DNA of 42,729 bases from Chitinophagaceae bacterium. GTDB lineage: Bacteria > Bacteroidota > Bacteroidia > Chitinophagales > Chitinophagaceae. The DNA lies in contig JAHEMN010000014.1 in the NCBI GenBank assembly GCA_024643645.1, positions 1-42,729 of the forward strand. The letters run 5' to 3'. Under the pieces are notes generated by a model. The model was not told where the DNA came from and did not search any database. It worked only from the letters and a program-made list of their open reading frames with translations. The position numbers and the translations under genes were made by a program. Positions 7,773 through 11,711 of this stretch are shown piece by piece (the first letter of the stretch is position 1; each line of letters begins with the position of its first letter).

Positions 7773-7955
7773 CTATTTCAGCTTTTCTTTAAGGAGTTGT
7801 GATTTTTTTGGTTCAGGTACATTTTCATATTCAAAGGGACAATGCATGCAGCCATTACCACAACAAAATCCTTTTTCAAAATGATATTGCTCTGTAAGTA
7901 CAACATATCCATCATCATTAATGTAGTAATGCAATCCTTCAATCAATTCCTTCAT
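7773..7955 (-). CDS. DUF5522 small cysteine-rich protein
   Basis: This 60-residue protein has the DUF5522 layout: GYVVLTEQYH, then CCGNGCMHCPF with four closely spaced cysteines (residues ~31-39). These probably bind a metal, by analogy with other Cys-rich micro-domains. Its start overlaps the end of trmB by 17 bases in another frame, which indicates translational coupling. It is followed by the ATL gene after 15 bases. Function is not established. The link to a tRNA methyltransferase gene and a DNA-damage sensor gene is positional only. Confidence 0.85.
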   Translation of the reverse strand: MKELIEGLHYYINDDGYVVLTEQYHFEKGFCCGNGCMHCPFEYENVPEPKKSQLLKEKLK

Positions 7956-8649
7956 CTTTTTTTAATATTTTCTTTAGTTCTTCGTCTTTGTCTTTTCCCG
8001 GTAATACATCTGGTAAAGAAAAGCAGAGATAATGAACCCGGTTACTACCTGCAATATCTAATGATTCATAATGTGTTTTAATATATAATTCATTTGATAC
8101 ATGTTCATTAGCATATACATTCTCAAAATCATGATGCAGGGTGCAATTATATAGTGAAATTACCTGCTTAGTGAATCTATACAGATCCGGACTATCTGTT
8201 TTCAAGTGTATTAAACCATTGGGAATGAGGAATTGTTTATAAAGACGTAAAAATTTTGGGTGAGTAAGCCTTTTTTTTGCTTTTGACATCCTTAATTGCG
8301 GGTCAGGAAAGGTTATCCATATCTCTGCAACTTCATTTTTAGTAAAATATTCAGCTGCCTGGTCAATCTGTGTTCTTAAAAAAGCAACATTTTTTAAATT
8401 ATTTTGTATAGCCCTTTTTGCCCCCACCCAAATTCGGTTCCCTTTAAGATCGAGGCCAATAAAATTTCTTTCAGGATATAATTGTCCAAGGCCTACGGCG
8501 TATTCTCCTTTTCCGCAGGCTAATTCCAGTGTTATGGGATTTGAATTGGTAAAATGGCTGTGCCATGTTCCCGCAACATTCTTTGGAAACTGAAATACAT
8601 TTGGGAAAGTCTCTATCTCAGCAAAACGGATTAATTTCTTTTGGCCCAT
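7939..8649 (-). CDS. trmB: tRNA (guanine-N7-)-methyltransferase TrmB
   Basis: TrmB makes m7G46 in tRNA variable loops, using S-adenosylmethionine. The SAM-binding motif LELACGKGEY is followed by FIGLDLKGNRIWVGAKRA, and the TrmB signature reads WITFPDPQLRMSKAKKRLTHPKFL. I use the ATG at 8649 (236 residues) instead of an in-frame TTG at 8658, because a TAnnTTTG promoter box occupies 8656-8663 and would overlap the longer version. The 3' end overlaps the DUF5522 gene by 17 bases. Confidence 0.95.
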   Translation of the reverse strand: MGQKKLIRFAEIETFPNVFQFPKNVAGTWHSHFTNSNPITLELACGKGEYAVGLGQLYPERNFIGLDLKGNRIWVGAKRAIQNNLKNVAFLRTQIDQAAEYFTKNEVAEIWITFPDPQLRMSKAKKRLTHPKFLRLYKQFLIPNGLIHLKTDSPDLYRFTKQVISLYNCTLHHDFENVYANEHVSNELYIKTHYESLDIAGSNRVHYLCFSLPDVLPGKDKDEELKKILKKDEGID

Positions 8650-8655
8650 GGCCGG

Positions 8656-8663
8656 CAAAGTTA
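8656..8663 (-). promoter_or_regulatory. -7 promoter box TAACTTTG of trmB
   Basis: The minus strand reads TAACTTTG, an exact match to the Bacteroidota consensus TAnnTTTG, and ends six bases before the trmB ATG. The transcript would therefore have almost no leader. No good TTG was found 19-22 bases upstream, so the promoter is only half supported. Confidence 0.55.
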
Positions 8664-8665
8664 CT

Positions 8666-9610
8666 TTAAATTTTTACCTGAAGGCCGATACCAAAAATGG
8701 ATTTTAATTGTAATGCCGGAGATGTTCCGTTTTTGCCAAATAACTCAACATCATCATCATAGATCATATCAAGATTCCAACTTAGGCAGATCAACTTTCC
8801 AACCTTTGCAGTAACAGCATTTGTCATATAGAGGTCCACATTCGATGGATTCTTATTGTAATTGGAGAACAGATCTATTCTGCCTTTGTAGGAAATGAAT
8901 TTATTGAATGATGTTGTATAGCTGATTGTTGCAAAGGAACCTACTTGGTTTAAACTATGTTTTCCCGGAGATACACCATAATCACCTCTTGCAGAAAGTG
9001 AATCATCTTTTACTATGATCCAACGGGAAGTGACAGGAGAAACGAAAGCAGTAAATCCTTTTACGGGTTTATATTCCAATCCCTGACTGATCAATGCATA
9101 AGCCGGTGATAAAAAAGCAGAGGAGAAATTCTTTTTATATACACCTTTATTGACCTCTATATATGAATAACCTTTTAATGCCTGGGTACGAAAATTTGTT
9201 AATGTAGTAAGGTTTAATTTTTTATTTAAAGTATACCCATACTTAGAAATAAAATCAATACGGTCGTCATTTTTCCTGCTTCCGAGGCTGGTCGTCTTTA
9301 TATAACCAAAATTCAGATTTAATGCATTGTCCCAGTTTGTTCTACCTTTTTTATAAAATCCATAGAGATAAAGTGAGGATGATAAAGAGAATGAAAAGTC
9401 ATCACCTCCCGCTGCCCAATTACTAAGGCTGCCTTGTCCTGCATTGATGCTATAAGTACCTCCCGTTTTCCAGTTTTTTACGCTGGTATCCTGCACATCT
9501 TTTTTGATTGCTCTTGTCGATTCAATTTGTAATTTCCGAATACTTTGGTCTTGTGAAAATAAATGCTGTGATAATAATACAAATAGGAAAAATCCGATTA
9601 TTTTTTTCAT
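8666..9610 (-). CDS. DUF3078 domain protein, predicted outer-membrane beta-barrel (paralog 1)
   Basis: The 314-residue protein has a signal peptide (cut near LFSQDQS) and the DUF3078 signature: NWKTGGTYSINAGQGSLSNW (residues ~45-65), an AAGGD motif and NFGYIKTTSLGSRKNDDRID. The alternating aromatic pattern and an ending in short strands (FGIGLQVKI) point to an outer-membrane barrel, but its function is unknown. It is a close paralog of the next gene upstream at 9835-10761, sharing the same blocks in the same order. The 224-base gap between them contains a terminator for the upstream copy, so the two are probably transcribed separately. Confidence 0.87.
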   Translation of the reverse strand: MKKIIGFFLFVLLSQHLFSQDQSIRKLQIESTRAIKKDVQDTSVKNWKTGGTYSINAGQGSLSNWAAGGDDFSFSLSSSLYLYGFYKKGRTNWDNALNLNFGYIKTTSLGSRKNDDRIDFISKYGYTLNKKLNLTTLTNFRTQALKGYSYIEVNKGVYKKNFSSAFLSPAYALISQGLEYKPVKGFTAFVSPVTSRWIIVKDDSLSARGDYGVSPGKHSLNQVGSFATISYTTSFNKFISYKGRIDLFSNYNKNPSNVDLYMTNAVTAKVGKLICLSWNLDMIYDDDVELFGKNGTSPALQLKSIFGIGLQVKI

Positions 9611-9834: not shown

Positions 9835-10761
9835 TTAAAACTTGACCAATAATCCAATGCCGACCAATGATTTAACCTGTAAACCGGGAGATGATTGATT
9901 AGGGCCAAATAATTTTACATCATCATCATAAATTAAATCAACACCCCAGGTTGCAGATAATACTTTCGATAATTTAATGTTCAGGACATTCGACATAAAC
10001 AGATCAATATTCTGCGGATTTCTTCTGTAATTGGAAAACAGGTCAAGTCTTCCTTTATAAGTAATATTCTTACTTATTTCTTTTAAATAGTTGATCGTCG
10101 CAAATGCTCCAAATTCGAGATTTGATTTTGAACCCGGAGTAACACCGTAAGCACCTTTATTGGAGAGGGCAGTGTCTCTTACAATTACCCAACGGGCAGT
10201 AACAGGAGAAAAGAAAATGGATAAGTTCTTTGTAGGCTTGTAGTCAAGACCAAGACTAAGTAATACATAGCCGGGGGCCATAAAATTTGAAGACAACTTT
10301 TTTACGTTATTATCAAAAGTATAACCTTCAAAAAATTGTGAACGTAAATTAAATAGTCCTGAAAGGTTTAGTTTAGGCCTTAACGCATAGCCGTATTTTG
10401 ACAACAGATCAAAACGATCATCATTTTTTCTGCTACCAAGACTGGTTGTGTTTACATAACCAAGATTAAAATCGAATGTATTGTCCCAGCTATGTTTATC
10501 TTTTTTATAAAATGCATATAAGCTAAGTAGTGAGTTTACTGATAGTGAAAAATTATCACCACCGGCTGCCCAGTTATTTAACGAACCCTGTGAAATATTA
10601 AGACTATACAATCCGCCTTTTCTCCAGGCTTTGGTACTGGTATCTGTATCGTCTTTTTTAATTTTTTTTTCTGTAGCTGATTTTAAAGCTTTAACTGACT
10701 CGTCCTGAGCTGCAACAGAAATACTAATAATTAAAGAAAGAAGAAGTATAGTTTTTTTCAT
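9835..10761 (-). CDS. DUF3078 domain protein, predicted outer-membrane beta-barrel (paralog 2)
   Basis: The start chosen is the ATG at 10761, giving a normal signal peptide (MKKTILLLSLIISISVAAQ). A longer reading to 10794 adds eleven residues and would cover the promoter box at 10776-10783. The 308-residue product carries the DUF3078 blocks GGLYSLNISQGSLNNWAAGG, NFGYVNTTSL or similar, SRKNDDRFD and a C-terminal DLIYDDDVKLFG, all also found in paralog 1. An outer-membrane barrel is likely; its role is unknown. Confidence 0.87.
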   Translation of the reverse strand: MKKTILLLSLIISISVAAQDESVKALKSATEKKIKKDDTDTSTKAWRKGGLYSLNISQGSLNNWAAGGDNFSLSVNSLLSLYAFYKKDKHSWDNTFDFNLGYVNTTSLGSRKNDDRFDLLSKYGYALRPKLNLSGLFNLRSQFFEGYTFDNNVKKLSSNFMAPGYVLLSLGLDYKPTKNLSIFFSPVTARWVIVRDTALSNKGAYGVTPGSKSNLEFGAFATINYLKEISKNITYKGRLDLFSNYRRNPQNIDLFMSNVLNIKLSKVLSATWGVDLIYDDDVKLFGPNQSSPGLQVKSLVGIGLLVKF

Positions 10762-10775
10762 TTCAAATGTTTTTT

Positions 10776-10783
10776 CAAATGTA
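10776..10783 (-). promoter_or_regulatory. -7 promoter box TACATTTG of DUF3078 paralog 2
   Basis: The minus strand reads TACATTTG, matching TAnnTTTG, 14 bases before the ATG at 10761. No clear TTG lies at the usual distance upstream; instead a palindrome (10790-10810) sits there, so an activator or repressor may act at this promoter. Confidence 0.5.
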
Positions 10784-10789
10784 ACAACA

Positions 10790-10810
10790 ATCATATTTTC
10801 TAAATATGAT
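10790..10810. repeat. 9-bp palindrome (ATCATATTT-N3-AAATATGAT), possible operator
   Basis: Perfect inverted repeat with a 3-base spacer, lying immediately upstream of the TACATTTG box of the DUF3078 gene, in the region where the -33 element would be expected. It does not have a T-run of an intrinsic terminator on either strand. It could bind a dimeric regulator; this is inference. Confidence 0.4.
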
Positions 10811-10878
10811 ATTAATTAATAATGAGTATAAAAACAATCATTTTATTTAACTGTTCATCATTAGTAGAAAAAAGGCAT

Positions 10879-10911
10879 AAAAAAAGCCTTCTGAATTTAT
10901 CAGAAGGCTTT
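10879..10911 (-). terminator. Intrinsic terminator of the tRNA-like RNA gene
   Basis: The minus strand forms a 12-bp hairpin (10911-10900 with 10894-10883, AAAGCCTTCTGA arm, 5-base loop) that ends in a run of T continuing from the stem. It starts five bases after the tRNA-like 3' end at 10917 and closes that transcription unit. Confidence 0.85.
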
Positions 10912-10916
10912 AGTAG

Positions 10917-11095
10917 CTGTAGGGGGAGGGATCGAACCTCCACGGAGCAGTTAGTTGTAGCACAAAGTTCGGTGGTCGACCCCGGTCGTCCCAGTATTGC
11001 TACCGAAACGGCTCTATGCTATATTTATCCTGTTACCTCCACCCCCGAGACAAGAGGGCATGTCTGCCATGCTTTCGCAATTTCATCACCCCACA
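10917..11095 (-). ncRNA. tRNA-like structured RNA with expanded D-loop and variable arm (unassigned)
   Basis: Reading the minus strand, TGTGGGG (11095-11089) pairs with CCCTACA (10924-10918) as a 7-bp acceptor stem with one G-T pair, followed by G as base 73; CCA is not encoded. A D-arm ATG/CAT (11086-11084, 11062-11060) encloses a Leu-type loop that would read AAATTGGCAGA if a 10-base insert with GCGAAAGC were removed. The anticodon arm CCCTC-TTGTCTC-GGGGG (11058-11042) would give anticodon GTC. The T-arm GGAGG-TTCGATC-CCTCC is at 10941-10925. Between the anticodon and T arms lie about 99 nt that fold into stacked helices (GGAG/CTCC, CAG/CTG, TAGCA/TGCTA, TTCGGT/ACCGAA, CGAC/GTCG). It has its own promoter and terminator. 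An alternative hairpin GCATG/CATGC competes with the D-arm. It is too short for tmRNA and shows no tag frame. Function unknown. Confidence 0.6.
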
Positions 11096-11129
11096 GTGTG
11101 TGTCTTGTTATTTTAAGAGCTTGATGGAA

Positions 11130-11246: not shown

Positions 11247-11711
11247 ATGGCGGCTAAATTAAATCTTGATAAACTCGACCTTCAGATCATTCATCACATG
11301 ATGGAAAATGCCGAAATTTCTTACGCTGATCTGGGTAAGAAACTCTTTGTTTCAGGTGGCACTATTCATGTTCGTATCAAAAAACTACAAGAGGCAGGAA
11401 TCGTCAAAGGTACAAGGTTGAAGGCAGATTTGAAGCAATTAGGTTATGATGTTATTGCTTTTATCGGAATTTATTTAAAAGAAAGTTCGTTATATGATTC
11501 TGTTGCAAAAGATCTGCAAAAGATTCCCGAAATAGTTCGGCTAAATTATACCACCGGCAACTATAGCATGTTCGCAGAAATAGTTTGTAAGGATATCGGG
11601 CAACTTCGCTTTGTATTGCATGATCAGCTACAAAAAATAAAGGGTATTGAAAGAACCGAAACGTTCATTTCACTGGATGAGAGCTTTAGCAGAAATGTGA
11701 AAGTGATGTAA
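11247..11711 (+). CDS. Lrp/AsnC-family transcriptional regulator
   Basis: The 154-residue protein has the standard two-part build. An N-terminal winged helix-turn-helix covers residues ~5-60 (LDKLDLQIIHHMMENAEISY, then ADLGKKLFVSGGTIHVRIKKLQEAGIV), and a C-terminal RAM/effector domain covers ~70-150 (YDVIAFIGIYL and following). Family members are feast/famine regulators that bind amino acids and form octamers. The start is clear because the family begins a few residues before LDKLD. The gene is divergent from the tRNA-like RNA and convergent with the OppC gene, so its targets may be elsewhere. Palindromes upstream may be its own operator. Confidence 0.95.
   Translation: MAAKLNLDKLDLQIIHHMMENAEISYADLGKKLFVSGGTIHVRIKKLQEAGIVKGTRLKADLKQLGYDVIAFIGIYLKESSLYDSVAKDLQKIPEIVRLNYTTGNYSMFAEIVCKDIGQLRFVLHDQLQKIKGIERTETFISLDESFSRNVKVM

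Follow-up and report, generated by a model that had tools for sequence, protein, structure and literature searches.

The window analysed here is a stretch of 42,729 nucleotides from a Chitinophagaceae bacterium (assembly GCA_024643645.1, contig JAHEMN010000014.1). On its minus strand, at 11095-10917, lies a tRNA-like RNA of 179 nt with a complete tRNA frame, which ends in G73 at 10917 and is followed by an encoded C74 at 10916, with no CCA. The parts of the RNA that follow are all on the minus strand. Its 7-bp acceptor stem is made of TGTGGGG (11089-11095) and CCCTACA (10918-10924), and the pairs U1-A72 and G2-C71 in it are invariant across the family described below. The D stem has 3 bp and is of the Leu type (ATG/CAT). 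The anticodon arm has the usual 5+7+5 layout (CCCTC-TTGTCTC-GGGGG), its loop TTGTCTC at 11047-11053 containing G34, U35 and C36 at 11051-11049 and then U37 and C38; the T arm reads GGAGG-TTCGATC-CCTCC (10925-10941). The initial annotation of this DNA had sited the acceptor, the D stem, the anticodon arm, the T arm and G73 exactly so. It had also described the D loop as a Leu-type loop with an insert, and natural variants bear this out: the hairpin TGC-GAAA-GCA at 11070-11079 is optional, relatives have a short loop instead, and AAATTTTTGGCAGA or a plain AAATTGGCAGA loop is found at this site in some of them. The genome has a single copy of the RNA; the 30 tRNA matches listed for it include a normal tRNA-Asp and five tRNA-Leu genes. 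An antisense ORF of 100 codons (10822-11124, plus strand) overlaps the RNA, and annotation might report it in error as a hypothetical protein.

Between anticodon stem and T stem lies the variable domain. It measures 100 nt (10942-11041, minus strand), where about 99 nt had been claimed, and its helices V1 to V3 covary. It consists of V1 (GGAG/CTCC), V2 (CAG/CTG), an internal loop GATAAA/CTAA, V3 and a hairpin module as a cap; the conserved cap is GGGGTCGACCACC at 10971-10983 (minus strand), GGGTNGACCAC in its family version, with GACCA(C/T). This long form, with V1, V2, the GATAAA/CTAA loop, V3 and the cap, accounts for 159 of 207 distinct parsable sequences and sometimes carries an upper hairpin, as it does in the window. 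A short form has no cap, long and short forms can adjoin in one genome, and across the family the variable region ranges from 39 to 131 nt. A pseudoknot through a second copy of TAGCA, suggested at the outset as possible, is not supported: the helix that covaries joins the first TAGCATA (11021-11015) to the V3 3' strand, and the second copy sits in the upper hairpin, which is missing from many homologs.

Comparative evidence for the fold is strong. In an alignment of 13 homologs (A2), standard pairs fill 97.5% of pair cells and double-sided changes are seen at 15 of the 34 pairs, compared with 48-59% standard pairs and double changes in 3-5 pairs when the alignment is slid as a control. A larger alignment of 113 distinct rows (A3) gives 98.3% paired and 21 of 34 pairs double-changed, in rows that were fitted to the model and are hence biased toward it. 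A free MAFFT/RNAalifold analysis of 45 long-form variable domains recovered V1 to V3 and shows many types of compensatory change. All cloverleaf arms pair in nearly all sequences; double changes occur in the acceptor, D and T stems, while the anticodon stem has one-sided changes only in both A2 and A3. A pairing of anticodon loop and D loop (AGAC/GTCT) was also considered; it is broken by AGCC variants and is ruled out.

The RNA has candidate expression signals of its own. A promoter of the Bacteroidota type, read by eye, has TTG at 11161-11159 and TATATTTG at 11137-11130 (minus strand). It has family-wide support: TAnnTTTG is present in 104 of 142 upstream regions of 130 nt each (15.7 when shuffled) and TTG-N17-22-TAnnTTTG in 68 of them (1.05 when shuffled), the shuffles here and in the next two counts preserving base composition only. 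The leader holds GCTCTTAAAA at 11111-11120 (minus strand), a boxA-like motif starting 25 nt before the RNA; such an element is found in 65 of the 142 upstream regions, against 9.8 when shuffled, and 48 of the 65 start 11-18 nt before the RNA. Downstream there is an intrinsic terminator at 10911-10883 (minus strand), with a terminator-like hairpin in 89 of 143 loci (6.3 when shuffled). Promoter and terminator had both been called by the initial annotation, which concluded that they made pure decay less likely. We rule out a decayed tRNA, given conservation across orders with compensatory changes and the promoter, boxA-like and terminator signals. That this is a real, conserved tRNA-like RNA is, in our opinion, beyond reasonable doubt.

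On the 3' side the RNA is immediately followed by two tandem DUF3078 genes (8666-9610 and 9835-10794, minus strand) and then by trmB (7939-8658). On the other side, and divergent from it, a gene at 11247-11711 (plus strand) encodes a Lrp/AsnC protein of 154 aa. Its best NCBIfam model is AsnC, at 164.8 bits, which is below the cut-off of 227; the Lrp model gives 50.2.

None of the tools that we tried recognises the RNA. In the window ARAGORN calls no tRNA and no tmRNA and Rfam 15 has no match reaching its gathering score; at lax thresholds the sub-threshold Rfam matches are terminator-like hairpins only. Other family members fare the same with ARAGORN (24 loci) and with Rfam including RF00005 (8 loci), the sole call in these loci being a separate tRNA-Ala in three. 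ARAGORN places no tmRNA at the tRNA-like RNA in the window or the 24 loci. A known Rfam RNA is ruled out by the same searches, which have nothing at gathering score in the window and 8 loci and terminator hairpins as weaker matches. Among the literature matches listed, no title concerns this RNA, in a search that lay mostly outside subscription papers. On the three points by which the initial annotation had proposed to judge its own reading, there is no Rfam match at gathering score, the T arm and acceptor are kept, and covariation agrees with the helices.

Homologs were collected by BLAST in 38 relatives, where 18 genomes matched, some (G034, G037) by the terminator alone, and a covariance model, R1, was then built from 13 homologs. 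We count as members only R1 matches with E<1e-15. By this line 187 of 298 genomes sampled from the order contain the RNA (223 match at E<=0.01, 36 of them weakly), as do 73 of 396 sampled from the class (189 match, 116 weakly), with 16 RNA-positive genomes common to the two samples. The four weak matches that were fetched (L237-L240) are tRNA-Leu(GAG); G034, G236 and G288 fall barely on the weak side of the line. A pattern scan of named genomes returned at least 120 stretches, and the 80 among the matches listed (L060-L139) all have Bacteroidota titles. Among these matches are Chitinophaga, Niabella, Segetibacter, Terrimonas, Dyadobacter, Emticicia, Aquirufa, Fulvivirga, Flammeovirga, Portibacter and other genera, and Chitinophaga pinensis and Dyadobacter fermentans are among the carriers. 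Tandem copies occur: across 150 loci there are two copies in 25, three in three and five in one (Flammeovirga pacifica). Two loci of same-genus genomes (L003 and L010, from G012 and G019) have a second, partial 3' copy downstream, consisting of the T arm and the acceptor 3' strand, in which two hairpins appear by eye to be inserted between T stem and T loop.

The RNA is also carried by phages. A pattern scan of IMG/VR gave 62 metagenomic viral contigs, every one of which matches R1, with U1 in 62/62 and A72, G73 and C74 in all 61 that are readable. The proteins examined, which come from eight of these contigs, include terminase large subunits encoded near the RNA (L299, L284), exonuclease, PhoH and ThyX (L299) and RNA ligase (L310, L303). 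ARAGORN, run on 31 phage loci, finds several with long tRNA arrays, such as the 19 tRNAs plus a tmRNA of L310; separate tmRNAs are called in L310 and L319, and some phages have their own tRNA-Asp beside the tRNA-like RNA (L303, L310). Two queries found no match among INPHARED phages, and one query with the window RNA found none among plasmids. In phage copies a 6-mer palindrome follows GACCAC in 31 of 38 distinct sequences (L268-L329), with 10.5 expected by shuffling, and possibly serves as a kissing-loop dimer site; in host copies the same site has one in 34 of 121 versus 32.5 shuffled, which is not above chance. In sum, this is an RNA family that neither ARAGORN nor Rfam recognises and that is widespread in Bacteroidota and present in some of their phages.

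What might such an RNA carry? Identity positions were counted in 63 distinct sequences (67 rows with duplicates), which had been found by similarity or R1 and not by the GUCUC pattern. U1 and G2 are present in 62/62 and C71, A72 and G73 in 63/63; in the anticodon loop G34 is present in 60/63, U35 and C36 in 63/63 and C38 in 61/63. Position 37 is U in 58, G in three and C in two, and position 33 is U in 53 and C or G in 10. An elongator tRNA needs U33 and a purine at 37 for decoding; in the family U33 is not fixed and position 37 is mostly U. Neither does the family have the A73 and Leu anticodon of tRNA-Leu, since G73 stands in 63/63 with NUC anticodons. Section 29 of PMC9976931 gives G73, G34, U35, C36 and C38 as strong aspartate determinants, to which bacteria add G1-C72 and G2-C71, and says that G1-C72 of bacterial tRNA-Asp helps AspRS to position the acceptor end. 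All five strong determinants are present in the RNA; G1-C72, which the host tRNA-Asp has, is absent and U1-A72 is invariant. This U1-A72 is the pair by which, according to the relevant passages of PMC4206432, bacterial GatCAB recognises tRNA-Asn. The combination of GTC, G73 and U37 had at first been called odd; all three are indeed there, but GTC and G73, with C38, make up an aspartate identity set.

The exceptions among these sequences are few: three of 63 have a Glu anticodon (two UUC, one CUC), and A38 is found in two. The Glu-anticodon members (L241/L263 and L247/L262 with UUC, L244/L261 with CUC) each have an adjoining AsnC-like gene and could be a Glu to Gln version of the system. The base after G73 is C in all 173 distinct members (185 rows with duplicates) and a full CCA is encoded in 14 (16 rows). 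Canonical tRNAs in the same loci behave alike, with C74 in 39/40 and CCA in 3/40, from which we infer that the encoded C74 marks a tRNA-type 3' end that would be completed by CCA addition.

The AsnC-like neighbour is a general feature of the family. Of the 134 loci that extend 700 bases or more to that side, 107 have a divergent AsnC-like gene within 400 bp, at a median of 153; counted as distinct loci it is present in 102 of 129 and lacking in 27. Of the other neighbour clusters, some of which were identified, none occurs in more than 12 loci. Of the 23 genomes in the window's genus, 12 carry the RNA as well as the AsnC-like gene, nine have neither, and two have the RNA alone, at a contig end. 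Three of the 38 relatives (G024, G028, G033) have the gene without the RNA, and no asn gene adjoins it in G024 and G033 by family searches or in G028 by eye. In G024, which lacks RNA and GatB and has AsnA, the slot divergent from the AsnC-like gene (L257:4262-4510) holds a boxA-like leader and a terminator-like hairpin; its fold is very stable (z -9.2), it has no R1 match, and it may be a different RNA, a degenerate copy or a mobile hairpin element. In G033, scored as lacking the RNA, the contig (L259) breaks off on the divergent side of that gene, close to the expected start of the RNA, with promoter-like and boxA-like sequences present; a part of the absences may thus be due to breaks in assemblies. 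In E. coli, according to passages of PMC4482635 and PMC8707732, asnA is activated by AsnC, an effect that Asn abolishes.

A second association is with GatCAB, for which we used GatB at E<=1e-20 as a marker (223 of 224 matches in the order and 299 of 308 in the class exceed the curated cut-off). In the order sample of 298 genomes, 182 have both RNA and GatB, five RNA only, 42 GatB only and 69 neither; GatB is thus present in 182/187 RNA-positive versus 42/111 RNA-negative genomes, with a Fisher p of 7e-32 that ignores relatedness. In the window's family the four counts are 82, 1, 2 and 15, where five of the 15 double-negative genomes have a weak R1 match that is scored as absent. RNA and GatB are jointly missing in nine genera of this family (g1, g18, g20, g30, g40, g43, g46, g47, g53), three of which (g1, g20, g43) also contain genomes with both. 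In the class sample GatB is present in 72/73 RNA-positive and 236/323 RNA-negative genomes. Six RNA-positive genomes have no GatB match, five in the order and one in the class sample, all of them assemblies in 350-530 contigs.

In 80 chosen genomes (28 of the 182 with both, all five with RNA only, 27 of the 42 with GatB only, 20 of the 69 with neither) other enzymes were also scored. AsnRS is present in 80/80, in 78 above cut-off, that of the window genome being a fragment. GlnRS is present in 24/28, 4/5, 7/27 and 20/20 of the four groups, respectively, so GatB without RNA is mostly the mark of a genome that needs GatCAB for Gln-tRNA. Among GlnRS-positive genomes only, the RNA/GatB table reads 24/4/7/20 (p 9e-6): where a genome has both GlnRS and AsnRS, GatB goes with the RNA, apart from seven exceptions. 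In those seven (of 27 checked) GatB has no evident job, because GlnRS is there. Genomes with GatCAB, GlnRS and AsnRS together are treated as a puzzle in passages of PMC4206432, whose Table 2 gives 67 of 547 genera and whose text gives 68.

Asparagine synthetases follow no such pattern. An AsnB-type gene (TIGR01536, some matches to which may be paralogs) is present in 26/33 RNA-positive and 17/20 comparison genomes, unrelated to the RNA (p 0.72), and AsnA is rare (7/80). Seven of 33 RNA-positive genomes have neither (G107, G119, G177, G184, G023, G172 and G104, the last being 86% complete), and so do G054, G212 and G237 among genomes without RNA and GatB. A simple replacement of AsnA or AsnB by the RNA is ruled out, as synthetase presence is unrelated to the RNA.

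Taking the published identity rules together with the co-occurrence, we are fairly confident that the RNA is charged with Asp, and we consider it likely, with somewhat less assurance, that this Asp is amidated by GatCAB. That the RNA is a source of asparagine under AsnC is a more tentative idea, to which we give a little less than even weight; the control by AsnC is suggested by linkage. As a whole, the reading that we lean towards, if slightly, is that of a non-decoding carrier for Asn synthesis, charged by AspRS, amidated from Asp to Asn by GatCAB and controlled by AsnC. AspRS would aspartylate the RNA through G34-U35-C36, C38 and G73; GatCAB, reading U1-A72, would convert Asp to Asn; the host tRNA-Asp has G1-C72. 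The unfixed U33, the pyrimidine at 37 and the large variable domain would exclude the RNA from the ribosome, where the amidated RNA would insert Asn at Asp codons; it is the relaxed decoding positions that suggest this avoidance. Finally, Asn would be freed as an amino acid or handed on, with the AsnC-like regulator in control, and the RNA, as carrier of the reaction, would do the work of AsnA, which AsnC activates in E. coli. Carriage by phages is compatible with an Asn carrier and not specific to it. The AsnC-like neighbour, the GatCAB link and the phage copies were all absent from the initial annotation, which is partly supported by our results, and they change the interpretation.

Several observations fit this reading poorly: the three Glu anticodons, the coexistence with AsnB-type genes in most of the RNA-positive genomes checked (the RNA is no substitute for the known asparagine synthetases), GatB without RNA in seven GlnRS-positive genomes, and the loci without an AsnC-like gene. 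Against it also stand U1-A72 in place of the G1-C72 of tRNA-Asp, U33 still in 53/63, and the six RNA-positive genomes without a GatB match. The enlarged Leu-type D loop, too, is unlike that of tRNA-Asn and tRNA-Gln and counts against an Asn carrier.

How else can the data be read? An unlikely reading, though one to be taken seriously, is that of a regulatory mimic which binds AspRS, GatCAB or AsnC as a non-substrate and tunes Asp/Asn metabolism. The covarying variable domain and the AsnC linkage agree with it and precedents exist in the tRNA-like elements of thrS or yeast AspRS mRNAs mentioned in PMC9976931, but a mimic has no evident need for an encoded C74 in 173/173 members, or for the identities of AspRS and GatCAB together. 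Rather improbable in our view is that Asp itself is used, by an aminoacyl-tRNA-dependent transferase that modifies a lipid, peptide or protein, GatCAB being uninvolved. The near-invariant Asp set, the tRNA-type 3' end and the relaxed decoding features would all be accounted for; however, the invariant U1-A72, the co-occurrence with GatB and the AsnC-type neighbour would be left unexplained, and no neighbour cluster beyond the AsnC-like gene, among clusters identified in part, reaches more than 12 loci.

Very unlikely is an unusual tRNA that takes part in decoding, with GAC/GAU read as Asp or Asn, despite the GUC anticodon, the predominant U33 and the phages that carry the RNA beside ordinary tRNAs, some with a tRNA-Asp of their own: C or G at position 33 in 10/63, U37 in 58/63, a variable region of 39-131 nt and the normal tRNA-Asp in the genome speak against it, and the GatB link would have no explanation. 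Charging by SerRS, the lead idea of the initial annotation, we regard as the least probable of all. It draws on the class II shape, with its long variable arm, and on G73. SerRS ignores the anticodon, and charging by it therefore leaves the near-invariant GUC and C38 unexplained; moreover, the two bases that separate the V stem from the T stem resemble, by eye, those of tRNA-Leu. The near-invariant G34-U35-C36, C38 and G73 are instead the strong aspartate set of section 29 of PMC9976931.

Whether this is a dedicated RNA platform for amino-acid biosynthesis, outside translation, under AsnC-type control, present in much of Bacteroidota and phage-borne, is for us a nearly balanced question. If an Asn carrier is what the RNA is, it would provide a job for GatCAB where GlnRS and AsnRS are already present, the puzzle posed in those passages of PMC4206432, and would stand as a present-day example of amino-acid synthesis on an RNA carrier, apart from decoding. 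It would also be a widespread bacterial RNA family that the annotation tools tried have missed.

The closest known system is the tRNA-dependent Asn synthesis of Deinococcus, Thermus and Bdellovibrio, in which AspRS and GatCAB act on tRNA-Asn. Asp on a U1-A72 acceptor, as we propose here, is common to both, and so is GatCAB beside AsnRS and usually GlnRS. The carrier there, however, is an ordinary tRNA-Asn (GUU), which a non-discriminating AspRS charges and which serves in translation, whereas the carrier proposed here would be an RNA of its own, with GUC as its anticodon and with relaxed decoding features. With bacterial tRNA-Asp the RNA shares G34, U35, C36, C38, G73 and G2-C71, but it differs in U1-A72 (not G1-C72), in the Leu-type D arm, in U37 and the unfixed U33, and in a variable region of 39-131 nt; that of tRNA-Asp has about 5 nt. 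The body of the RNA is apparently derived from bacterial tRNA-Leu, with which it has in common the 3-bp D stem and the D loop, and tRNA-Leu(GAG) is what the four fetched weak model matches are; G73 instead of A73, the Asp anticodon and the far longer, structured variable region set it apart. Like tmRNA, it would be a non-decoding RNA with a tRNA-like end, and both occur on some phage contigs (L310, L319), but it is not called by ARAGORN and has a full anticodon arm and a separate identity set. Finally, as in the asnC-asnA unit of E. coli, an AsnC-type regulator adjoins a product that would make Asn from Asp, although the partner here is an RNA gene and not asparagine synthetase A.
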